Assembly: GCA_024275485.1 (NCBI GenBank)
Contig: JAJRZA010000004.1
Span: 1-38,705, forward strand
From: Candidatus Krumholzibacteriota bacterium
Lineage (GTDB): Bacteria; Krumholzibacteriota; Krumholzibacteriia; LZORAL124-64-63
Reading direction: 5' to 3'
Length of the DNA stretch: 38,705 nucleotides
The translations under genes were made by a program, and so were the position numbers. This document shows, piece after piece, positions 24,306 through 38,579 of the stretch; position 1 is the first letter of the stretch, and every line of letters starts with the position of its first letter. The notes under the pieces are model-generated. The model did no database searches. It was not told where the DNA came from and saw only the letters and a list, made by a program, of their open reading frames with translations.

Positions 24306-25334
24306 TTATTTTCCCACGGGCTCAATCATCGTCCGTCCCATGGCGTTGGCGATGGGTCGCAGGCTGACCATGAGTTCATCAAAGGCTTCTAAGGTCAGGC
24401 TTTGTTGCCCATCGGAAAGGGCTTTGGACGGATCGGGATGGGTCTCGATGATGATCCCATCGGCGCCCGCAGCCACCGAGGCCCGGCACATGTCGGCCAC
24501 ATAATCCACGTGCCCCACCGCATGGCTCGGGTCAACAATAACCGGCAAGTGGCTGACCCGTTTGATGACCGAGACTGCCGAGAGATCGAGGGTGTTGCGT
24601 GTCGCCGGCTCGTAGGTGCGGATTCCCCGCTCGCACAGCATGACCTGGGTATTGCCGCCGGACATGAGGTATTCCGCAGCCAACAGCATCTCCTCAATGG
24701 TCGACATCAGTCCCCGTTTCAACAGCACCGGTTTGCGCTCCTTGCCGACGTCTTCGAGCAGGGCGTAATTCTGCATATTGCGCGCGCCGATCTGCAAAAT
24801 GTCCGCATAACGGGCAACCAACGGTACCAGCTCGGGCGAGATGATTTCAGTGACGATGGGCAGGCCGGTCTCCTGGCGCGCCATGGCCAGGATTTTCAAC
24901 CCTTCTTCCCGCAGTCCCTGAAAACTGTAGGGTGAGGTGCGGGGCTTGTAGGCGCCGCCCCGCAGCACCCGGCCGCCACTGGCCTTGACCTGGCGGGCGG
25001 TCGAAAGCAGTTGATCGGTGGACTCCACGCCACAGGGGCCGGCCATGACCACAAACTCCGACCCGCCGATTTTCAGATCACCCACCTGGACCACGGTTGG
25101 CTCGGGCTTGAAATCCTTGCTGACCATTTTGAACTTGCTGCTCAACGGTGCAACCTGGTCGACACCCGGCATGTCCGCCACGTCCGACAAGTCGTCGCCG
25201 GTTGCATCCATGATACCGATGACCGTGCGCTGGGCACCGTGGTTGGGTCGCGGTTTGAATCCGCGGTCTTCGAGAACCTTGAGGACTCGGCCCAGTTCGG
25301 CCACGGTGGCGTTTTCTTTCATGACTATTATCAC
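24306..25334 (-). CDS. aroF: 3-deoxy-7-phosphoheptulonate synthase (DAHP synthase, type I-beta)
   Basis: This enzyme joins phosphoenolpyruvate and erythrose 4-phosphate in the first step of the shikimate pathway. The 342 residues include the short ferredoxin-like regulatory N-domain of the Thermotoga/Bacillus type ([26 protein letters not shown], to about residue 70). The (beta/alpha)8 barrel follows, with [67 protein letters not shown] and [10 protein letters not shown]. Metal and substrate residues in these motifs are intact. It overlaps trpA (ATGA-type junction) and ends the trp operon, so precursor supply falls under tryptophan control. The N-domain may confer feedback inhibition, but its effector cannot be told from sequence. 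Confidence 0.96.
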
Positions 25335-26151
25335 GACTGGGAACCTTTCGTGGGGTGCATGGCCTGAACCATGTCGGCAAGAAATTTGGTTGCGGCCGCA
25401 ACAGCATCGTCGCCGGCCTGATCGATGGTTCGGATCAATGCACTGCCAACGATGGCACCATCGGCCACCCTTGCGACCTGAGCGGCCTGATCGGGAGTGG
25501 CAATGCCGAACCCGACATAAAGTGGCAGGGAGGTGACTTTGCGGACGCGGTTCACATAAGAAGCCAGGTCGCCGGTGGCCGATGCGCCAGTCCCGGTGAC
25601 GCCGGTGGTTGAAACCAGATATAGAAAGCCTCCTGCTTTAACCGTGTTGCGGGCCAGGCGGGAAGGGTGGGTGGTCGGAGCGATCAGATCTACCAAATCA
25701 GCGCCATTTTCGGCCAGCAGGTTGTGAAATCCGCTGGACTCTTCGGGCGGCAGATCGGGAATGATGACCCCGGCGATGCAGGCCTGGCCACAAGCTGCCG
25801 CAAAACGGTCTGGCCCCATCTTCAGGATGGGGTTCAAGTATCCCATCAAGACCACGGACAACCCGTGTTCGCGTTGGGCATCGGCAGCCAGTTCCAGGGT
25901 TCGGGACAAAGTCATGCCCTGGGCGAGGGCCTGCCGGGATGAGGCCTGAATCACCGGCCCATCGGCCACCGGATCACTGAAAGGGATGCCGATTTCCACC
26001 AGGGGGCATCCCACCGAAGCGGCGGCGGCCAGAACACCGGCAAAGGTTGCTTCATCGGGATAACCGGACGTCAGGAATGGCACCAGTGGCTTGATCCCTT
26101 CCGTGCGAAGGCGTTCGGTCAGCTGGGTGAGACGACCTTGTGGCAAAGCAC

Positions 26152-26155
<4 letters not shown>
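25331..26155 (-). CDS. trpA: Tryptophan synthase alpha subunit
   Basis: TrpA cleaves indole-3-glycerol phosphate to indole, which tunnels to TrpB. The 274-residue TIM barrel has the catalytic glutamate in [20 protein letters not shown] and the aspartate in [12 protein letters not shown]. It also has the phosphate-binding loops [15 protein letters not shown] and [13 protein letters not shown], plus the late GAIVGSALI loop. The length is normal. The start overlaps the trpB stop by four bases and the end overlaps the aroF start, which fits coupled translation of a complex that needs equal subunits. Confidence 0.97.
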
Positions 26156-27291
<1,136 letters not shown>

Positions 27292-27372
27292 CAGGGTTTC
27301 GGGTACGAACTGGCCTCCGTAGGGGCCGAAGCGCCCCTTGCCGGATGTGGAGAAAATTGATTAGGAGCTCAC
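27292..27372 (-). other. trpB: Displaced trpB start: ideal GTG start followed by in-frame TAA at codon 4
   Basis: GTG 27370-27372 overlaps the trpC(F) stop (GTGA) and has GGAGG seven bases upstream, which is exactly how the other genes of this operon begin. The frame then reads S-S-stop (TAA 27361-27363), S, I (ATT 27355-27357), F-S-T-S-G and the conserved TrpB N-terminus. One base change in the TAA would restore a normal TrpB of about 406 residues. Confidence 0.75.
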
Positions 27373-28763
27373 CGTTTCACCTCCGTGATGAAAACGCGGG
27401 TTTTGTCCGGGTGTTTCAGCCTGGGCTTTGCTTCGACGCCGCTGGCCACATCCATGGCAAAGGGTCGCACCTGGTCGCAGGCTGCGGCCACGTTTTCCGG
27501 GGTCAATCCACCGGCAAGAAAGACCTCGTGACCGGCGGCAGCCAGGGCTGAAGCGGCAGCCCGACAATGGGCCGGTTCCACATCCTCTTGGTCGGGGCCT
27601 TTGGGCAGATCAACCAGGAAATAGGCCACAGATTTATAGGATGCCGCCCGTTGCGGGGTTGCTTGGTTGGCGGTCAGGGCCTTGATGAGAGGACGCCCGG
27701 TTGCCGCAGCGATTTCATCACAATCGTTGGGACTCTCGTTGCCGTGCAACTGGATAAGATCCAGGTCGCAGGCCTCGGCAACGGTGATGATGTGTGAGGA
27801 AATCTGGTCAGAAAACACACCGCACAATCGTGCGTCCGGAACCGCTTGACGAATCTCCAACGCCTGATCCACGCTGACTTGACGAACGCCGGCAGCGAAA
27901 ATCACACCGAGAATATCGGCACCCGCACCATGGGCCATCAACGCATCTTTGGCCGAGGTGATACCACAAATTTTTACGCGCGTGGTCTTTTCCGACTCGC
28001 GTCCCACCAGTTCGGCCACCTTGCGGCCAGGGTCACGACTTTGCAGAAGTGCGTGGCCTACCAGGAAGGCGTCGGCACCAAAATCGGCCATGCGGGAGAT
28101 ATCTTCGCGAAGGTAAAGTCCGCTCTCGCTTATTCTTATGACCTGGGTTGGAACATAAGGCATAAGAGCCGCACCGTGCTCCAGATTGGTTTCCAGGGTG
28201 GCCAGATTGCGATTGTTCACGCCAATCAAACGGGCTTCGGCCGCCACCGCCAGATTGATGTCTTCCCGATCATGACATTCCACCAGAACGTGCAGGCCCA
28301 AATTGTGGGCAAACTTCAACAAAGTCTTGAGCCGTTCTCCATCCAACATGCGAACGATCAGCAAAACTGCATCGGCGCCGGCTGCCCAGGCTGCCAGCAG
28401 TTGCGCTTCATCGATGACAAAATCCTTCACCAGAACAGGCAGCGGCACGGCCTCTTTCACCGCCGCCACATCAGACAACGAGGTGCCAAAATGCTCGGCA
28501 TCGGTGACGATGGAAAGGGCAGCAGCGCCATTGCGCAAATAGGCACGGCCCAGGGTGGCGGGCGACGCAGGTTGGTTGAATTCCGGGTGGCTGGGAGACT
28601 TGCGCTTGATCTCGGCGATGAGACGGTTTCCACATCGCAGGGCCGCTTCAAAATCGCGCACTGGCAGGTCGTGGGGGCGCTCGGGTTTGGCCTGGGCAAA
28701 AGCGGATCGCAAAGCGGCGACTTCAGCTTGTTTGGTCGGCAGAATCTTCTCCAGAAAACTCAT
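27369..28763 (-). CDS. trpC: Bifunctional indole-3-glycerol phosphate synthase / phosphoribosylanthranilate isomerase
   Basis: This 464-residue protein fuses two TIM barrels, so it carries two consecutive steps of tryptophan synthesis (isomerisation of phosphoribosylanthranilate, then ring closure to indole-glycerol phosphate). The N-terminal TrpC domain (about 1-255) has LIAEIKRKSPS, VLVKDFVID, GVNNRNLATLETN and ISESGLY. The C-terminal TrpF domain (about 262-464) begins VKICGIT and continues LGVIFAAGVRQVS, LIQLHGNE, FLAGGLTPENV and MDVASGVE. The order C then F is that of the enterobacterial fused protein. It overlaps trpD at its start (ATGA) and the proposed GTG of trpB at its end. Confidence 0.95.
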   Translation of the reverse strand: MSFLEKILPTKQAEVAALRSAFAQAKPERPHDLPVRDFEAALRCGNRLIAEIKRKSPSHPEFNQPASPATLGRAYLRNGAAALSIVTDAEHFGTSLSDVAAVKEAVPLPVLVKDFVIDEAQLLAAWAAGADAVLLIVRMLDGERLKTLLKFAHNLGLHVLVECHDREDINLAVAAEARLIGVNNRNLATLETNLEHGAALMPYVPTQVIRISESGLYLREDISRMADFGADAFLVGHALLQSRDPGRKVAELVGRESEKTTRVKICGITSAKDALMAHGAGADILGVIFAAGVRQVSVDQALEIRQAVPDARLCGVFSDQISSHIITVAEACDLDLIQLHGNESPNDCDEIAAATGRPLIKALTANQATPQRAASYKSVAYFLVDLPKGPDQEDVEPAHCRAAASALAAAGHEVFLAGGLTPENVAAACDQVRPFAMDVASGVEAKPRLKHPDKTRVFITEVKR

Positions 28764-29806
28764 GATACCCCTCCGGCGTCACTGGTCGAGCGGGACTTCA
28801 AATGGTTGAAAACACGCAGGGCGGAACCATCGTTCAGTTTCTGTCGGGCCAAAGCGACGCCGCCTGGAATATCGGGAGCAAGATCAGCCAAAACGGCGAC
28901 AAAGGCAGCATTCAGAACCACCACATCGGTGGTCGGGCCCTGCTGGCCCTGCAATATATTCCGGATGATCGCAGCGTTCTGCTGCACGCTTCCGCCCAGA
29001 AGGTCTTCCGGTCGACAGAGTTCGAACCCAACTTCGAGGGGGTCAAAACTAAATGTTGTGACCACTCCCTTATTGAGGGCGGCCACCCGGGTTTCTCCCA
29101 TCAGCGATACCTCATCCAGCCCACCCTCGCCGTGCACCACGAAGACTTTCTCGGAGCCCAGGGCGCACAGCACCCGGGCCAGGGGTTCACAAAGGTCGCC
29201 GTCGAAAACACCCAACAGCTGACGCCTGGCGCCGGCGGGATTGGTCAACGGTCCGAGCACATTGAAGACGGTGCGCACACCCAACTCGCGACGGGCCTGC
29301 ATGGCGTGTTTCATGGACGGATGCAGGGATGGGGCAAAGAGAAAGCCCAGGCCGATTTCGTCCACCAGGTTCGCCACTTGGGTCGGGTCCAGGTTGATGT
29401 CCACGCCCATGGCTTCCAGAACATCGGCACTGCCACAGGCCGATGAGACGGCTCGGTTGCCGTGCTTGGCCACGGCACAACCCATGGCTGCCGCAACAAT
29501 GGCCGTGGCGGTGGAAATGTTGAAAGTACTACTTCCATCGCCGCCGGTGCCGCAGGTGTCGACCAGATCGGTGCGCCGGGGCCTGACCGTCACGGCGCTT
29601 TCGCGCATGGCGCGAGCCAGCCCGGTGATCTCGTCAACGGTCTCGCCTTTGGTTCGCAACGCCACCAGGATTCCGGCCAGCCGGGCGGTAGGCACCCGTC
29701 CATTCATGACCTCGGTCATCAACCCATGGGATTGGTCCAGGGTCAGGTTTTCACTGGCCATCAAGAGGTTCAAAATCGACTGGCTCAGTTCAGTGTCCGC
29801 GGACAT
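28760..29806 (-). CDS. trpD: Anthranilate phosphoribosyltransferase
   Basis: TrpD transfers a phosphoribosyl group from PRPP to anthranilate. The 348 residues include the PRPP- and metal-binding loop [23 protein letters not shown], the KHGNRAVSS segment and the anthranilate-site region [38 protein letters not shown]. The C-terminal [13 protein letters not shown] is also present. Length and motif order are standard. GGAG lies six bases before the ATG at 29804-29806, inside the end of trpG, which it overlaps by 17 bases. Confidence 0.97.
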
Positions 29807-30389
29807 GGTTTTCTCCTCTCGGACTCACCAACTGCAGGAAATTGTGCAGCAGGGTCGATCCTTCGGGAGTCAGAATGGATTCGGGATGGAATTGCAGACC
29901 CTCGATAGGCAGGTCGCGATGCCGAACACCCATGATTTCGCCACCGCTGGTGTAGCTGGAAATATTCAATTCCCCGGGCAAGTCACTTTCCAGGGCGATC
30001 AGCGAGTGGTAGCGCGTGGCCTGGAAAGGGTTGGACACTCCGGCAAAGATGGTTCCTCCGTCGTGGTAAACGCTGCTGGTTTTTCCATGCATCAGCCGCT
30101 CGGCCCGTACAATGCGGCCACCATAGGCCTGCACGATACTCTGATGCCCGAGGCATACCCCCAGAATGGGTCCGCGTCCGGCATAGGCTCGAATCAATTC
30201 CACACTTATTCCGGCATCATCAGGCGTACCGGGGCCAGGGGAGATGATTACTGATTCGGGTTTCAGGGCCAAGGCTTCTTCCACGGTGATCTGGTCGTTT
30301 CGCACCACTTTGATTTCGGCGCCCAGCTCGCCCAGAGCCTGCACGATGTTGAAAGTGAACGAGTCGTAGTTGTCGATGAGCAAGTGCAT
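29790..30389 (-). CDS. trpG: Anthranilate synthase glutamine amidotransferase component
   Basis: TrpG releases ammonia from glutamine for TrpE. The 199-residue class-I amidotransferase begins [19 protein letters not shown], the family's typical start. The nucleophile is in [15 protein letters not shown], the conserved [12 protein letters not shown] loop is present, and the His/Glu pair is in [11 protein letters not shown] longer open frame to 30569 runs back through trpE and is not used; ATG 30387-30389 lies two bases after the trpE stop. It is a separate subunit here, not fused to trpE or trpD as in many other bacteria. Confidence 0.96.
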
Positions 30390-30391
30390 GT

Positions 30392-31933
30392 CTACAGCCC
30401 CTCTTCGGCGATGCGGACGGCCCGGGTCAGCGCCCGGATCTTGTCCAGTGATTCCTGATGCTCGCGCGCGGGATCCGAGTCGGCAACGATACCCGCTCCC
30501 GCCTGCACGCTGAATTGGTAGCCGTCCGGTTTGTTGCGTTGCATGAGCAGGGTGCGGATGGTGATGCACATGTCCATGTCACCATTTTGACCGAAGTAGC
30601 CCACGGCACCGGCGTAGTGTCCGCGCCGGTTGCCTTCCAGTTCGGACAAGATTTCCATGGCCTTGATTTTGGGCGCTCCCGAAACCGTTCCGGCCGGGAA
30701 GGTGGCTCGTAGGGCGTCGAACATATCCAACCCTTCGTTCAACCGGCCGGAGACATGGCTCACCAGATGCATCACATGGCTGTAACGCTCCACGGCCATG
30801 AATTCGTCGACTTTCACGGTGCCGGTTTGGCATACCCGGCCCACATCGTTGCGCCCGAGGTCGACCAGCATGACGTGTTCGGCGCGTTCTTTTTCGTCGG
30901 CCAGAAGATCATCGGCCAGCTCGTTGTCCTGGGCTACGGTTTTGCCTCGCGGCCGAGTGCCGGCGATGGGATTGACCTGCAAACGACCGTTGGTCAGCCG
31001 CACCATCATCTCGGGTGATGAGCCAGTCAGCTGGAAGTCGTCGAAGTCCAGGAAGAAGAGGTAGGGACTGGGGTTGAGGATGCGCAGAGCTCGATAGATC
31101 TGGAACGGAGCAACCTCTGTTTCACCGCTCAGACGCTGGGAAATCACGATCTGGAAGGCGTTCCCGGCCCGGATGTGTTCCTGGACCTGGCCAACGAGGT
31201 TCATGAATGTTTCCCGGTCCAGGTTGGGTGTCAGGCCGGCACTGGGGTCGACCACGGTTTCTTTTGAACCTTGAAGGCGCCGTTCCTTGCGCACTTCCGG
31301 CGGCAAGGGCTGGTCCAGGGCCTGCAGGATGGCTTCGATTTCGGTGCAGGCTTTGGCGTGGGCCGCTTCCGGAGACCCGGCACGCGGCAAGGTCAGGATT
31401 TCAATTTCACTCTTGATGTGATCGAAGACCACCAGGGTGCGCGGGAACATGAAACGGTAGTCGGGCAGGTCGTCGGCCGTTCCATTGGGCAAGGTGATGT
31501 TTTCGAAATACTTCACCATGTCGAACCCCACATAACCCACGGCGCCACCAAATGGAGGCGGCAAGGCGGACTCCGGATCCTGCGTCAGCATTGAAGTTGC
31601 CAATTCAGCCCGGACCGGACCCAGGGGATCGGCGGGATCAACCGCGGCGGAGGTTGGTTCGTGACCTTCCCGCCTGGTGTGCACCACATCGTCCACCAGT
31701 TGAATGTTGGTTTCGGCAGAAAGTCCGATGAAGGAATGACGCCCCATCTGGACCCCCCGTTCAACACTTTCAAATAGAAAGGCGCTACCGTCGGCTTGGG
31801 ACTTCATGAAGGCCTTCAGCTTCAGAAAGACCGAGACCGGTGTCTCGAGATCGGCGGCAATGGTGGCCCGCACGGGGATATTTTGTCCCTCTCGGGAACT
31901 GTCGATATAATCGGAACGGGTGGGCGAGATCAT
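30392..31933 (-). CDS. trpE: Anthranilate synthase component I
   Basis: TrpE makes anthranilate from chorismate and is the committed step of the pathway. The start at ATG 31931-31933 (513 residues) is chosen because GGAGG lies five bases upstream; a GTG at 31945 would overlap that site. The N-terminal domain holds [19 protein letters not shown], equivalent to the LLES region that forms the tryptophan feedback site. The chorismate-binding domain has [19 protein letters not shown]-like [37 protein letters not shown] and [17 protein letters not shown]. It is the first structural gene after the attenuator. Both enzyme-level feedback and transcriptional attenuation are therefore likely. Confidence 0.97.
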
Positions 31934-31994
31934 CGCGTCCTCCACAGGATTGTCTCTCGGAGATCCGCCATTCGGCAGTGGAGGGAAACAAAAA

Positions 31995-32020
31995 ACCCAC
32001 CATCTGCGCGGATGGCGGGT
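31995..32020 (-). terminator. trp attenuator (intrinsic terminator before trpE)
   Basis: On the minus strand ACCCGCCATC (32020-32011) pairs with GATGGTGGGT (32004-31995) over ten positions including one G-U, with a six-base loop and a run of Ts directly after (TTTTTTG TTT). It ends about 60 bases before trpE and after the leader-peptide frame, which is the exact place for a transcription attenuator. Two upstream leader segments can pair with it instead: CGGATG at 32086-32081, and an eight-base segment at 32074-32067 that pairs with the terminator loop and foot. These are candidate antiterminators. Confidence 0.9.
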
Positions 32021-32025
32021 CTGGA

Positions 32026-32065
32026 GACGGGTTTGGTTCAGTCAGCTACTGGGTGAACCTCCCGT
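32026..32065 (-). promoter_or_regulatory. Leader hairpin across the trpL stop codon (possible pause structure)
   Basis: ACGGG/CCCGT, GGTTCA/TGAACC and CAG/CTG can stack into one interrupted stem with the leader-peptide stop codon TAG in the loop. It lies between the Trp codons and the terminator. In classical trp leaders a hairpin here pauses polymerase until the ribosome arrives; assigning that role here is inference. Confidence 0.6.
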
Positions 32066-32174
32066 GCGCGCAAACGCGAACATCCGGGCACTCGTTTTGA
32101 GCGCACCAACGCCACCAACGCCAAGAGGCACTGCTGGAGGATTGGATGTTGTTTTGGCACAGGGGCACGTTCAT
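32046..32174 (-). CDS. trpL: trp leader peptide, Trp-rich
   Basis: This short frame lies between the trp promoter and the attenuator and codes for 42 residues, MNVPLCQNNI then QSSSSASWRW then WRWCAQNECP, ending in FTQ and TAG (32046-32048). Four Trp codons fall within six codons (32121-32123, 32115-32117, 32112-32114, 32106-32108). That is far above the normal Trp frequency and is the mark of a tryptophan-sensing leader. An in-frame ATG at 32187-32189 would add five residues. GGAG lies three bases before ATG 32174, closer than usual. Under Trp starvation the ribosome should stall on these codons and leave the downstream CGGATG free to pair with the terminator arm, allowing readthrough into trpE. 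Confidence 0.88.
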   Translation of the reverse strand: MNVPLCQNNIQSSSSASWRWWRWCAQNECPDVRVCAHGRFTQ

Positions 32175-32208
32175 GGTCTCCGTCTGCATGAGAATATCAA
32201 CAGGCATG

Positions 32209-32237
32209 ATCATATATCAAGATTGGATTTGTGTCAA
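32209..32237 (-). promoter_or_regulatory. trp operon promoter (sigma70-type)
   Basis: On the minus strand TTGACA (32237-32232) and TATGAT (32214-32209) are 17 bases apart, a near-perfect sigma70 promoter. The predicted start, about 32202, gives a leader of roughly 270 bases that contains trpL and the attenuator. Confidence 0.88.
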
Positions 32238-32846: not shown

Positions 32847-34883
32847 CTATCGTATCAACAAGACCCCACGGTCGTCCTGGAGGATCTCCTCGAACGGATT
32901 ATCGTTCGTGAAGGTCACATCGAACGTTCCTGTTCCACTTTGCATACTGACCACTCGGGATTCCCAACCGACATCGGGAAGGGCCATCACGTTTAGTTCG
33001 AGAGTGCCGTCGAGTACCTGCCCGCCTCTCAAGAAGGTGAGGCTCTCGGCGGGAATGTCTCCGTTGACAGGAACATCCAACTCGAGCTTGAACAAGGATC
33101 CCAGGACGACATTGCCGTTGATGGCCATGTGGGCGGGCTGGCCGCCGAGGTCTGGTCGAATCGTGCCGGACATTACGGCTGACGAGGCATCCACTACGTA
33201 CAACTGTGCGGTGGCAAGATCAGGTACTTCGGTGCTGCCCCCGGTCATGATCCCGGAGTCGAAGAGTGTAAACGCACCCTTTACGGTGAGCGTACCCTCG
33301 ACCAGGTTCATGGTGCCCGAGCAGTCGAAGGCTGTTTCCACCACGAAAGCTCCCTCGCCCGTCCTGCGGAACTCACCGATCACGTCGAAACTGCCGGGTG
33401 CTCCCAGACCCTGGTTCACGGTGCCGGCGGTCGACTGGAACCATCGGCCGGCATACTCGATGCTGATGGTTGCGCCCTCGGCCAGGGTGAGGTTGACGAT
33501 GGTGTCGCTGGTCACCTCGCCGTGGACGTGCCAAGTGGTCGCGGACAGTGCAGAGGTGCCGGTGTTCTCAAGCGTGGTCTGGGATCCGACCTGGGTGTTC
33601 AGCGAACCCAGCTCGGCTACTGTGCCCCGGCGCCAGGTAAATGTGTGATTGATCAGCAGGCCACCTGGCCCGGTGATCCCGGGGAGGGTTCCCGAATCGA
33701 GAATGAGGTGGCGGAAGGTGACGATATCGGTCTCGAATGTACCCATGGTCACACTACCACCGATCACAAAGGGACCGTCACCTTGTGAGTTGACGTTTGG
33801 GATGGTGGTTTGACCGGACTGTCTCAGAATCGCATCCCCGTCGATTTCGATGGTTCCGCGTAACGAGCCACCCGTGATCCACAGCGAACCGGTGTCCACC
33901 CGCAGCGAACCAGTCGAGCTGAACTCGGCCGAGGACGCAAAAAGGGTAGCCTCCTGCGCACCTTGGCTCTTACGAATGGTGCCGGCGTTGCTGAGGTTGC
34001 CATTGTTCTGCACAGTCAAGCTGGCGTCGCCCTGAAGGTCGATGATCGCGCCGCTGCTGCATTCAAGCATCTGATTGACTCGCAGGCTGGCACCGGCCCC
34101 CACCGAAATGGTACCGCGATTGTCCACGTCCGTCTGAAGTTCAAGTGGGTTGCCGATGGCATGCAGCTCGGCCCCGCTCTGGATCTCCATTTGGCCGGAG
34201 CCCATGATGACGCCGCCGCTCCAGGCGAGATCACCCTGCACGATGAGATGGCCGGAGACCTCCATTTCGGCGCCGTCCAGCAAGCCGCAGGTCGTGAGCT
34301 GGAGCTGATTTCCGTTGGTGTCGAGGATCTGGGTACCAGAACCGGCGCCCAGAACAAGGGCCTCCACGTCGACGTCGCCATTCAGGGTGACGGTGTAATC
34401 GCCCGTAGCGGTGATCACTGCCACGTCGCCAGCGCCCGGCACCGCGTCGTCGCTCCAGTTGGCAGCATCTTCCCAGTTGCCGCTACCGGCGGCGATCCAT
34501 TCGCGCACCGGTCCGCTGGCCAGGGTTACGGTCACCTCGGCGGTGTCAGTCGCGCTGCCCGCAGTGACGTAGATCGAAGCCGTGCCCAGGCCGGTTGCGA
34601 CCGCCGCGCCGTCCTGCCCTACGAACACCACGCCGTCGTCGCTGCTCTGCCAAGTGAAGACCGTGTCGATGGCTGCGCCATTCTGGTCAAAGGCGGCGGC
34701 GTCGAACTGCACATCCTCACCGATGGCGGTGAAGGTAATAGTTTCTGGGTCGACGACCACGGTGGCTACGTGCGGATCCTCGGGTACTCCAGGATCGACA
34801 GGGTCGTCGTCATCGCTACATCCGGTGACGCAGACAATGGCGAGCATCATCATTGCCAAAATAGCGTATTGGCTAAGTTTCAT
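32847..34883 (-). CDS. Large surface lipoprotein with BIG2-like domain and beta-helix-like repeats
   Basis: This 678-residue protein has a lipoprotein signal (IVCVTGC, Cys22) followed by an acidic tether (SDDDDP), typical of surface-exposed lipoproteins. Residues about 40-125 form a BIG2-like Ig domain (VVVDPETITFTAIGEDVQFDAAAFDQNGAAIDTVFTWQSSDDGVVFVGQDGAAVATGLGTASIYV). From about 130 on, GSGNWEDAANWSDDAVPGAGDVAVI begins a run of short glycine-, threonine- and valine-rich beta turns (LVLGAGSGTQILDTNGNQLQLTTCG and so on) consistent with a parallel beta-helix of the kind in autotransporter-like adhesins. No enzymatic motif is seen. GGAG lies eight bases upstream of the ATG. The role is probably attachment or structural. 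Confidence 0.8.
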   Translation of the reverse strand: MKLSQYAILAMMMLAIVCVTGCSDDDDPVDPGVPEDPHVATVVVDPETITFTAIGEDVQFDAAAFDQNGAAIDTVFTWQSSDDGVVFVGQDGAAVATGLGTASIYVTAGSATDTAEVTVTLASGPVREWIAAGSGNWEDAANWSDDAVPGAGDVAVITATGDYTVTLNGDVDVEALVLGAGSGTQILDTNGNQLQLTTCGLLDGAEMEVSGHLIVQGDLAWSGGVIMGSGQMEIQSGAELHAIGNPLELQTDVDNRGTISVGAGASLRVNQMLECSSGAIIDLQGDASLTVQNNGNLSNAGTIRKSQGAQEATLFASSAEFSSTGSLRVDTGSLWITGGSLRGTIEIDGDAILRQSGQTTIPNVNSQGDGPFVIGGSVTMGTFETDIVTFRHLILDSGTLPGITGPGGLLINHTFTWRRGTVAELGSLNTQVGSQTTLENTGTSALSATTWHVHGEVTSDTIVNLTLAEGATISIEYAGRWFQSTAGTVNQGLGAPGSFDVIGEFRRTGEGAFVVETAFDCSGTMNLVEGTLTVKGAFTLFDSGIMTGGSTEVPDLATAQLYVVDASSAVMSGTIRPDLGGQPAHMAINGNVVLGSLFKLELDVPVNGDIPAESLTFLRGGQVLDGTLELNVMALPDVGWESRVVSMQSGTGTFDVTFTNDNPFEEILQDDRGVLLIR

Positions 34884-35034: not shown

Positions 35035-37974
35035 TTATTTCAGCAGCATCATCCGCCGACTCATAACCGTATCATCCGTCTCCAGACGATAGAAGTACAC
35101 ACCGGTGGCAACCGGATAACCGCCGGAAGTGGTACCATCCCACAACACACTCTGGTCGCCCGCGGGCAGGTCGCCCTGGAGCAGGGTCTTGACCAGGCGT
35201 CCACTCACATCAAAGACCTGCAGCGTCGCCCGACCAGGCTTGGCAAGAGAGAAGTTGATGCGAGTTCGGGGGTTGAATGGATTGGGGTGATTCTGACCCA
35301 AATCCGTAACAATTTGGACCGGCAACAGTTCATCATCCACACCTGAAACTCCGCTCAGCGCGATGATCGCCAGGTCGTCGATGCCGGCTTCGACCAGGGA
35401 ACCGGCGCCCTCGTCCGAGGCGACAAACCTCAGTTGCACCTGATCTGCCACCGGGAAATAGTCCAAAACATTTACGGTGTGGCTAACCCAGGCGTTTGTG
35501 GACTGGGTTGTGTGTTCAACCACCACCCAGTTGGTGCCGCCGTCGTTGGACAGACTTACGTCCCAGTAATCCAGGTTGGGGGTGGCGCCCATATTATTGG
35601 AGTACCATTTCCAGTAGCGCAGGGTCACCTCGTTGAATCCGGACAGATCGTACACCGGTGAGAATAGGGTGGTCGCTCCCCCATCAATGTCATTATAGCC
35701 GGCTCCCTGGCCAACCTCGTGCTGGCCGGTGATCCAACAGTTGGTGCCGTCGAAGGTATGATCATTTTCCGGTTGGGCGCTGGTGCCAACAGGGTCAACG
35801 TGTTCCCAGACACCGGAAGTAGCCGCATCGCCCTGGGCACCGGCACTCCAGTCTCCTGCTATCTCGATGGGATCAATGCTCGTTGCCACGAGGAATCCGA
35901 AGAGGGAGTCGGGAGCCAAGGTAGGCAAAGAGCCGACATTCCCGAGGTCATCACCAGCGGACAGGTAATACTCCACGTCCCCGGATGATTGGGCGGGAAT
36001 CTCCCCGGTGAAAGAATTGTCCTGGCCGGCGGTCATGACTTGTTCAGTCCAGGTTCCGCCGTTGACTCGACAGTGCAATAGAACCGTTGAAGGGTCGAGA
36101 TCAGCTTCGGTGGACCAGATCTCGGCCACCACTTCGTAGGGGTTCGTGCTGTCGGTCGTATCGATGAGTGGTGTGTGGGAAAAGAGAACGCCCACCAGGA
36201 TTTGTGGACAATCAAAGTTATGGTTGCCGGCGGCTGCACAATAGAAAGCGTGGTTGGGTGTGCCGTTGTCCAGGTTGCCGTCGTCATCATCGGCAAAGAA
36301 GGTTGCGAAGACCTGATCCGGCTGGGAGGTCGGATGCAACAATGTGCGCCCGAAATGCCAGTTGGAAGCCGAAATCATGGTGCCCTGTTCCTCACCGTAA
36401 TAGTCCTGCATCAGAACCATTGCATCCCAGGTAAAGCCCAGAATAACCTGACCGGCAGCGTGGATTGGTATGCCGACGACATTGTCGGGATAGATCAAAC
36501 TGTTCACGGCATCCCGAAGCCCCGTCTCGCAGTTACCCGAGAAAAATCCTCTACCCAGCTCAGGATCCTGGGTCATCAGGCAAGCCAGGATGTCCCCGTT
36601 GCCTTCGCCCAGGCCTTGGTCGCCCTGCCAACCCAGAATATAGTTCTGAACACCATGACCAAATTCGTGTTGCACCACTCCCTGTATCTCTCCCGTGTTT
36701 TCATAGCCATCACCGGCGACGCAGAAATTGATGGTTCCGTTCCACCAGGCGTTGCCGGGACAGTAACCGTCGTTTCGACTAACATAGGCACTGATTCGTG
36801 CCTGCGAATAACCAAAACCAGGGTCAAAAGATTCAAAGAAGTCGTGGATATCATTGATGGCGTCGAAGGTGTCGCGCTCATCCTGTTGGGAATTGAAGGG
36901 ATTGAACTGGATATTGAGCGGTTCACCTTCCTGGGCCACTCCGACGTATTGGCCTTCAGGCCCGCTGAAGTTGTTCATGTCGATGTAGGGACCGTAAAGA
37001 TCGGCCGAAATACTCAACGCACCGGTGGAACCTTCAAAGAGCCAGTTGCCGTCGGCATCGGTGATGGTCTCGCCCACGCCGCTGCCGGTTATGCGCAGGT
37101 AGGGACTGGGCTGGGTGGTTACACCGTTGCAGTAAGTACTATCCTGAACCCGGGATCCTGCAGTGCCAACATGGTCAAAGTGGATGTCGTTGTAACGCCA
37201 GATGATGTCGCCACTGTGAGCGTCAATATGAGTCACCCAGATTCCCAGGGGATCGCTGGTGCTCACTCGAATGCGGTAAACCAGGTGATACTCAACCTCG
37301 GAGGGAGAAACGGGAACCGGCAGAATCAGCAGATCAGTTTCTCCATCAAGACTATCGCTGCCCGGGTTGAACGGAACACTGTTGCGGGCAATCATTTCAG
37401 CCATGGCGCGGTCTAGGCTGGGCCGGAAATCCACCTTGATGTTGGGATAGAAATCGCTACCCGCCAACATCAACCCACCCTTGTCGGAGAAGGCCACAAT
37501 TGCTTTGCCTTCCCAGACGTCGAGTCCGTGATAGGTCTGCTGGTAATGCACGACCCATTTGCCGACTGCGTGGGGAACGGCCTTGACCCTCAGCTCATCC
37601 AGATTGGCCTGGAAGAGATCCGGGTTTTCGACCAATACCCTGCGAGCTGATGAGACAACCTGATCAGTTGATTGGAACGAACGTCCCAGGGGTTCACTGC
37701 CACCGTACACATAGTGCGGTGTTCCCGTGTACTGATTGTGCGAAAAAACCTGCCAGTTTCCACCATAATTGGCCCTGAGGGAGGCTGTGGCCTGATTTGC
37801 CTGTCGGGCGAAGGCGATCTTGGCCTGGGGCAAGGGCATGAATTGCGGCAGACTGATTTCATAGCTGTTGTTTTGAGGGACGGGCTGAATGGCAAAAACA
37901 GGTAAACTGCCAAACAAGGTCAGCAGTCCCAACACGATAGCCATAGGCGGAAAAAATAAATACGGACGGTTCAT
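35035..37974 (-). CDS. Secreted zinc metallopeptidase (M36 fungalysin-like) with FlgD/T9SS-like sorting domain
   Basis: The start at ATG 37972-37974 gives 979 residues with a clear signal peptide (AIVLGLLTLFGSLPVFA) and GGGGAG upstream; a longer frame to 38442 has neither. An FTP-type propeptide region follows (about 80-170, ENPDLFQANLDELRVKAVPHAVGKWVVHYQQTYHGLDVWEGKAIVAFSD). The catalytic domain has HEFGH at residues 436-440 (36655-36669) and the third zinc ligand in GLGEGNGD (about Glu457), the M36 arrangement rather than the M4 one. Downstream are a beta-sandwich region (Fn3-like, about 620-720) and a MAM/jelly-roll-like domain (TLRYWKWYSNN). The last 80 residues are the sorting domain (NHPNPFNPRTRINFSL, VLWDGTTSGG, ATGVYFYRLE, ending MMLLK). 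Confidence 0.92.
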   Translation of the reverse strand: MNRPYLFFPPMAIVLGLLTLFGSLPVFAIQPVPQNNSYEISLPQFMPLPQAKIAFARQANQATASLRANYGGNWQVFSHNQYTGTPHYVYGGSEPLGRSFQSTDQVVSSARRVLVENPDLFQANLDELRVKAVPHAVGKWVVHYQQTYHGLDVWEGKAIVAFSDKGGLMLAGSDFYPNIKVDFRPSLDRAMAEMIARNSVPFNPGSDSLDGETDLLILPVPVSPSEVEYHLVYRIRVSTSDPLGIWVTHIDAHSGDIIWRYNDIHFDHVGTAGSRVQDSTYCNGVTTQPSPYLRITGSGVGETITDADGNWLFEGSTGALSISADLYGPYIDMNNFSGPEGQYVGVAQEGEPLNIQFNPFNSQQDERDTFDAINDIHDFFESFDPGFGYSQARISAYVSRNDGYCPGNAWWNGTINFCVAGDGYENTGEIQGVVQHEFGHGVQNYILGWQGDQGLGEGNGDILACLMTQDPELGRGFFSGNCETGLRDAVNSLIYPDNVVGIPIHAAGQVILGFTWDAMVLMQDYYGEEQGTMISASNWHFGRTLLHPTSQPDQVFATFFADDDDGNLDNGTPNHAFYCAAAGNHNFDCPQILVGVLFSHTPLIDTTDSTNPYEVVAEIWSTEADLDPSTVLLHCRVNGGTWTEQVMTAGQDNSFTGEIPAQSSGDVEYYLSAGDDLGNVGSLPTLAPDSLFGFLVATSIDPIEIAGDWSAGAQGDAATSGVWEHVDPVGTSAQPENDHTFDGTNCWITGQHEVGQGAGYNDIDGGATTLFSPVYDLSGFNEVTLRYWKWYSNNMGATPNLDYWDVSLSNDGGTNWVVVEHTTQSTNAWVSHTVNVLDYFPVADQVQLRFVASDEGAGSLVEAGIDDLAIIALSGVSGVDDELLPVQIVTDLGQNHPNPFNPRTRINFSLAKPGRATLQVFDVSGRLVKTLLQGDLPAGDQSVLWDGTTSGGYPVATGVYFYRLETDDTVMSRRMMLLK

Positions 37975-38579
37975 GGAAAACTCTCCCCGAGGTTGCGATA
38001 ACAGATCAGTGCCCCCTGACCGTGAATGATTCATTGTACCAAAGATTGGCGGGAAATGCGAACCAAAGGGATAGGACCAAGGGCTAGGACTTAGCGAAAA
38101 TCCCTTTTTCAGCCATTTACTATGGGTCAGAGTAGCGATTGGGTGTGACCTCCGCGGGGGCACGACCAACGTTGGACAACAGGTTGATGGCTGTGGAAAA
38201 ATCAGGAGCGACGGCAGCATGACCGAGTTGAACCCCTGCTCTCCGCCGGTTCGCCATGCTACCCGAATTCTCCTACTGCATTTTGCGGAGCAGCTAAATT
38301 CTGCCGAATGAAAAGTTGCCGATGAACCGCTTGGCCGCGTGAGAGGAGAAAAAGGATCTGGTGCAGGCAATCTGCGGCGGTTTCGCCTATGGGGTATCTG
38401 GTTGGTAGCAAATACTTTAATCCGGCAGGTGGGCCTTTTCAATCAATAAATTCGCTAAATTGGATGCTCCAACTTGGTGAACCCAAAAATATGAAAATGA
38501 GGCTCATTACTTTGTTTGTGCCCCCGAAATTGTTTCTCCCTTCTATCGTTGGTGTGTTCCCCAGCCATCCATTAACCCC
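37975..38579 (-). other. 605-bp region upstream of the peptidase gene, no gene seen
   Basis: The open frame that continues upstream of the peptidase start looks non-coding. A TACAAT (38038-38033 on the minus strand) is the best -10 candidate for the peptidase, with no clear -35. Nothing else is recognisable. Confidence 0.35.

Follow-up and report, generated by a model that had tools for sequence, protein, structure and literature searches.

A candidate ribosome-mediated attenuator of the trp operon, conserved in three families of Krumholzibacteriota

The trp operon of a Candidatus Krumholzibacteriota bacterium is very probably controlled by transcription attenuation in which a translating ribosome senses charged tRNA-Trp, as judged from the sequence of the locus and of its relatives. 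The element fits the leader-peptide trp attenuators: it has a short open reading frame (ORF) with clustered Trp codons, an intrinsic terminator, and an alternative antiterminator pairing with compensated base changes. These parts are conserved in related genomes, and their pairings compete in silico. An earlier note on this DNA had called it a classical leader-peptide trp attenuator, a reading that is borne out by its retention in 23/23 readable related leaders and in two held-out loci.

Most descriptions of classical ribosome-mediated trp attenuation come from Proteobacteria and Actinobacteria. Searches of the open-access literature gave no earlier account of trp leaders from the FCB group; a comparative survey by Lopatovskaya and colleagues from 2010 may list some FCB cases. 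The known range of the mechanism would thus extend to a phylum without an earlier report that we could find, in which a whole uncultured lineage keeps the attenuator and its compensated pairing. Leaders of this type are also common in a second FCB lineage.

The trp operon and its promoter

The window, i.e., the whole stretch of 38,705 nucleotides that was analyzed, carries a complete trp operon on the minus strand in the order trpE-trpG-trpD-trpCF-trpB-trpA-DAHP synthase, with a promoter and a leader upstream. The host had been thought to be a member of the FCB group, which agrees with its assignment to Candidatus Krumholzibacteriota and with its nearest TrpE relatives (81 to 89% identity), which are mostly Krumholzibacteriota/Krumholzibacteriia.

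32209..32237 (−), sigma70-type promoter, TTGACA, 17 nt, TATGAT (11/12 consensus bases)
30392..31945 (−), trpE, anthranilate synthase component I, above the TIGR00564 cutoff
29790..30569 (−), trpG, glutamine amidotransferase
28760..29806 (−), trpD
27369..28763 (−), trpC-trpF fusion
26152..27291 (−), trpB
25331..26155 (−), trpA
24306..25334 (−), DAHP synthase, at the end of the run of overlapping genes

Promoter-like sites are more frequent in the 600-base region than in shuffled sequences (4 versus 0.3), and hexamers resembling TTGACA and TATGAT occur at the equivalent position in related leaders. The trpE ORF is open from a GTG at 31945, and an ATG preceded by GGAGG lies at 31933. In the trpG ORF, about 60 residues precede the glutamine amidotransferase domain, which places the true start at about 30389. 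The last four bases of trpA are shared with the DAHP synthase gene, and the trp attenuator therefore probably controls the entry step of the aromatic pathway as well.

Leader, terminator, and antiterminator

The following parts lie between the promoter and trpE; the locus is labeled L001 in the comparisons below.

32046..32174 (−), trp leader peptide ORF, ATG 32174 to TAG 32046, 42 codons, MNVPLCQNNIQSSSSASWRWWRWCAQNECPDVRVCAHGRFTQ followed by the stop
32106..32123 (−), regulatory Trp codons, UGG CGU UGG UGG CGU UGG (codons 18, 20, 21, and 23; WRWWRW)
32081..32090 (−), base of segment 2, UGCcCGGAUG, antiterminator 5′ strand, inside the leader ORF
32005..32090 (−), antiterminator rod, 86 nt, UGC/CGGAUG/CG/GUUUG/ACGGG/GGUUCA and their partners
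32027..32065 (−), apical hairpin spanning the leader stop codon, ACGGGaGGUUCA ... UGAACCaaaCCCGU
31994..32021 (−), intrinsic terminator hairpin (segments 3 and 4), GACCCGCCAUC-CGCGCA-GAUGGUGGGUU
31990..31995 (−), terminator U-tract, six T's in the sequence

The earlier note had described a near-perfect promoter, a 42-codon leader with Trp codons at positions 18, 20, 21, and 23, a hairpin over the leader stop, a terminator with a T-run just before trpE, and two segments able to form an antiterminator. All of these were recovered, and the leader was exact, with a possible alternative start at 32168. In alignment, this GTG, two codons past the leader ATG, coincides with the GTG start codons of close relatives (L024, L025, and L047) and for that reason may be the true start, giving a peptide of 40 rather than 42 residues.

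The terminator, a hairpin of 11 to 12 bp (ΔG, −18) followed by the six T's, lies some 57 nt ahead of the ATG of trpE. In the predicted antiterminator, CGGAUG (32086 to 32081) pairs with CAUCCG (32014 to 32009), and the pairing extends into a rod (ΔG, −37.5; z = −3.4) that holds the leader stop codon in its apical loop. The 5′ strand of this predicted antiterminator is coding sequence within the leader reading frame. At equilibrium, the full-length RNA of L001 with a stalled ribosome favors the terminator over the rod (−46 versus −37.5 kcal/mol). In this model, the choice between terminator and antiterminator must therefore be kinetic and made during transcription, as in E. coli.

A Shine-Dalgarno-like GGGAGG (32063 to 32058) lies six bases before the last sense codon of the leader and is kept in close relatives. 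We considered it as a holder of the terminating ribosome and rejected this role, as the motif can be explained as part of the rod (ACGGGAGGUUCA with UGAACC..CCCGU) and is absent from some lineages. It is probably a piece of the antiterminator rod and could affect ribosome release.

Proposed mechanism

Transcription would begin at about 32202, and a ribosome would start on the leader ORF. Under a shortage of charged tRNA-Trp, the ribosome is predicted to stall at the UGG cluster (32123 to 32106), its footprint leaving the RNA free from about 32095 onward. Segment 2 and the 5′ arm of the terminator could then form the 86-nt rod, and RNA polymerase would continue into trpE. With ample tryptophan, the ribosome would cross segment 2 and reach the stop codon at 32046, in the apical loop of the rod. 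This would disrupt the rod, the terminator (32021 to 31994) would form, and transcription would end at the U-tract at about 31990. Without any ribosome, the leader would fold with the terminator, so that the default state is presumably off. We infer the coupling, the stalling, the termination at 31990, and the response to tryptophan from the arrangement of these parts; if correct, they imply coupled transcription and translation as well as intrinsic termination in bacteria that have not yet been grown.

Conservation across the phylum

A search for TrpE over 80 genomes of the phylum gave 23 loci from three families (f1, f7, and f8) with a readable upstream region. A Trp-rich leader followed by a terminator was present in all 23, with two to five Trp codons in a span of seven residues (WRWWRW, WWPW, WWQW, WWRWWTW, WWWC, etc.). 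These leaders end 88 to 163 nt upstream of the TrpE match, with the terminator next. Two held-out loci (L047 and L050) show the same combination, bringing the total to 25/25 readable loci. Some elements were marked by hand after misses or errors of the script (the terminators of L024, L038, L043, and L045 and the leader of L043); the hairpin of L028 was trimmed by hand, and L034 is truncated by the end of its contig.

In families f2 and f4 of the same class, none of the five leaders checked (L048, L049, L051, L142, and L143) had the leader-terminator combination. Three of these five loci were placed in the TrpE tree and fall in a separate TrpE lineage. Regulation of trp in the phylum therefore appears to take two or more forms.

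Competing pairings in related leaders

As had been suggested in the earlier note, we folded the leaders with and without a stalled ribosome. The stalled state was represented by the RNA that is free behind a ribosome at the last Trp codon, before the 3′ arm of the terminator has been made. These stage-specific folds were adopted because several members gave only weak z-scores when their duplex was compared with shuffles locus by locus. Across the 23 leaders, the stalled folds all beat dinucleotide shuffles (mean z, −2.54; Stouffer, −12.2). The 5′ arm of the terminator pairs with the leader ORF or the stop region in the minimum-free-energy structure of all 23, by 2 to 11 bases each; the pairing involves two bases in L035 and L036 and is strong in most leaders. 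The ribosome-free structure includes the terminator in 18/23 leaders, and in the examples folded with a ribosome at the stop codon, the terminator forms in silico. As a control, E. coli trpL gave the textbook 2:3 antiterminator helix in the same script.

Leader lengths and inserts differ too much for a single reliable alignment, so a permutation of swapped partners was used instead of one covariance model for all leaders. Cognate duplexes were more stable than swapped ones (−18.2 versus −15.6 kcal/mol; 0/20,000 permutations), and the same was seen with one genome per deep lineage (−19.3 versus −15.4). The swap test was uneven, in that the cognate segments of L001 and L023 to L026 did not rank high among all partners.

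The sequence of the basal helix varies from lineage to lineage: L001 has CGGAUG:CAUCCG and L027 has CGGUGG:CCACCG, with further compensated versions in L041 (GGGUAGCGGG:CCCGCUAUCC), L043 (CUUGCGGAUAG:CUAUCCGCAAG), and L050 (GCGGAAcAUGGGC:GCCCAUcUUCCGC). It is in this helix, and between deep lineages, that both sides of the pairing change. In an alignment of seven genomes (the genus and its neighbors), 91% of the cells of the rod are paired, compared with 27 to 42% when the strands are slid by one to three columns. Within these seven genomes, no pair changed on both sides, the covariation score was not above that of shuffles, and there were fewer pair types than in shuffles. The finer details of the rod rest on conservation and energy for this reason. 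The comparison of related leaders that had been called for thus yielded conserved Trp codons and a covarying helix between deep lineages, with no such covariation for the rod within the genus.

Comparison with known attenuators

The E. coli trpL-trpE leader (RF00513, Trp_leader) has in common with the studied leader its tandem Trp codons, an antiterminator that uses the 5′ arm of the terminator, a GC-rich terminator with a U-tract, and trpE as the next gene. RF00513 was the sole Rfam family with an E value below 1 in the 400-base region, matching from the Trp codons to the terminator at 18.3 bits, short of the gathering cutoff of 41 bits and compared with 93.1 bits for the E. coli control. The attenuator thus appears to work like the RF00513 family and is not classed in it. 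The architecture differs in several respects. The leader has 40 to 42 codons here and 14 in E. coli, and the distance from the last Trp codon to the stop is 57 nt here and 9 nt in E. coli. Segment 2 follows the stop codon in E. coli, whereas here it lies inside the ORF, some 15 to 25 nt downstream of the last Trp codon, where a ribosome heading for the stop would sweep it.

Trp leaders of Corynebacterium and Streptomyces, likewise outside Proteobacteria but in a different phylum, have double or triple UGG codons and a terminator and antiterminator sharing complementary triples (PMC1262725). The shared core is gGCC-rGCy-GGCC in those leaders and CGGAUG-CAUCCG-GAUGG here.

In Balneolaceae, Trp-rich leaders precede trpE in 11/11 loci. 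Like the studied leader, those of Balneolaceae and related genomes, e.g., Aliifodinibius salipaludis (L010) and Fodinibius sediminis (L011), are followed by a terminator, and in most of them segment 2 lies inside the ORF. They differ in a tandem WWW without Arg between the Trp residues, in a CCCACUG core, and in a TrpE that belongs to a separate clade. Most Balneolaceae-like leaders have an almost fixed distance of about 33 nt from the last Trp codon to the stop. In the more AT-rich members of the phylum that includes Balneolaceae, an antiterminator was not evident by the folding method used.

The earlier note had stated that leader-peptide trp attenuators are mostly proteobacterial, which needs qualification. 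Across the phylum of the Balneolaceae (loci L008 to L017, L020, L054 to L083, and L144 to L180), 47/70 sampled genomes carry Trp-rich leaders before trpE, nearly all with terminators, according to lists read by eye; the count is made up of 27/30 of the best TrpE matches and 20/40 others picked by hand down the ranking. Among 58 single genomes across the domain, about seven carry a Trp leader, one of them weak. Statements on taxa here rest on the named loci. The cross-domain leaders with terminators (L096, L097, L109, L117, L118, L129, and L137) come from scattered families, and that of L096 ends in KGWWRSMQ, close to E. coli trpL. A trpE leader with WYSINWWW (MCKKQDDPLALLKVINTTPSNFQVNSWYSINWWWAVHAAL) was also seen in an Aminicenantes genome (L007, 2730 to 2850).

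Origin of the operon

The earlier note had also offered convergent evolution or operon transfer as explanations for a host outside Proteobacteria. Acquisition of the operon and its attenuator from Proteobacteria would account for the TrpC-TrpF fusion and a gene order resembling that of E. coli, and yet we consider it very unlikely. TrpE scores 532.9 against TIGR00564 (trpE_most; cutoff, 517.7) and only 306 against trpE_proteo (cutoff, 494.7), and the leader peptides cannot be aligned with trpL. TrpE also stands apart from E. coli in trees, which included one named proteobacterium with a full TrpE. Based on the profile scores and the tree position, a recent transfer from Proteobacteria is therefore unsupported.

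In a tree of 72 TrpE rows, the 24 leader-bearing Krumholzibacteriota form their own group (support, 87/98), the rows from the phylum of the Balneolaceae form another (100/99), and E. coli lies apart on a long branch, with weak support for the deep backbone. When leader presence was used as a label on an 88-row TrpE tree, 11 changes were needed at best, two of which are forced by well-supported branches. Since the TrpE backbone lacks resolution, ancient inheritance with losses and repeated gain of the leader are both compatible with these TrpE sequences, which the assessment of origin covers. The placement that had been proposed for TrpE thus gave a group of its own, away from E. coli, on a weak backbone, and the choice between the two earlier explanations needs qualification. 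Such leaders offer a route to ask how often leader-peptide trp attenuation arose.

A further reading is that leader-peptide trp attenuation is old and widespread across the FCB group, inherited there rather than obtained from Proteobacteria, and built on an antiterminator architecture of its own. We put it forward tentatively and regard it as rather less than probable. If true, the moving ribosome itself would unwind the antiterminator, through a 5′ strand made of coding sequence past the Trp codons, and the antiterminator of some genera would be a long rod tipped by the stop codon.

Other sensors and roles

The leader peptide might itself be the active product, either in trans, a mode of action reported for Sinorhizobium meliloti peTrpL (PMC7298713), or as a TnaC-like arrest peptide, with the terminator being secondary. 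Its Trp/Arg-rich core is unusual, and the long tail PDVRVCAHGRF is similar among close relatives. The tail is not conserved as protein, however: the same RNA block is translated in another frame in L004/L025 (RMFAFAHGRF versus DVRVCAHGRF) and likewise in L047, and therefore it is the RNA that is kept and not the peptide. Beyond the genus, the Trp cluster is the sole conserved part of the leader peptide, and regulation in cis through pairing accounts for the conserved RNA, all of which makes an active peptide highly improbable.

A terminator/antiterminator pair by itself is compatible with any sensor, including a TRAP-like protein or uncharged tRNA bound by a T-box. A translating ribosome remains our preferred sensor. 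The TRAP profile PF02081 has no match in the 96%-complete genome (the Bacillus subtilis control was positive), and the window has no T-box or other Rfam family at gathering score. Either of these sensors would leave the Trp codon cluster, found at a fixed place in every leader, unexplained, and we find them scarcely credible here.

Finally, the promoter and terminator are consensus matches and could in principle be an ordinary upstream terminator next to a chance small ORF, with the operon under another promoter or repressor, but this is barely tenable given the full set of parts in the 25 readable loci of f1, f7, and f8, the covarying pairing, and a genome in which no TrpR gene was found (96% complete; controls positive), unlike the E. 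coli system. For specificity, we scanned for short ORFs with at least three Trp residues in seven codons and a terminator within 110 nt. The single match on both strands of the window was the studied leader, and the 19 matches in 238,186 strand-bases of related loci were all trpE leaders, with no further Trp-rich ORF and terminator. Chance is therefore excluded.

Genome context

The upstream region of trpS in the same genome, read by eye, has no Trp leader. HisG, the LeuA dimer domain, and the large subunit of acetolactate synthase (IlvB) were unmatched in this genome, which is 96% complete and has a full trp operon; auxotrophy for His, Leu, and Ile/Val is possible, as are unusual enzymes. Upstream of the operon, the window encodes two large proteins: one (32847 to 34883) without any Pfam or NCBIfam match and another (35035 to 38442) with a C-terminal FlgD Ig-like domain, possibly a secretion sorting tail.
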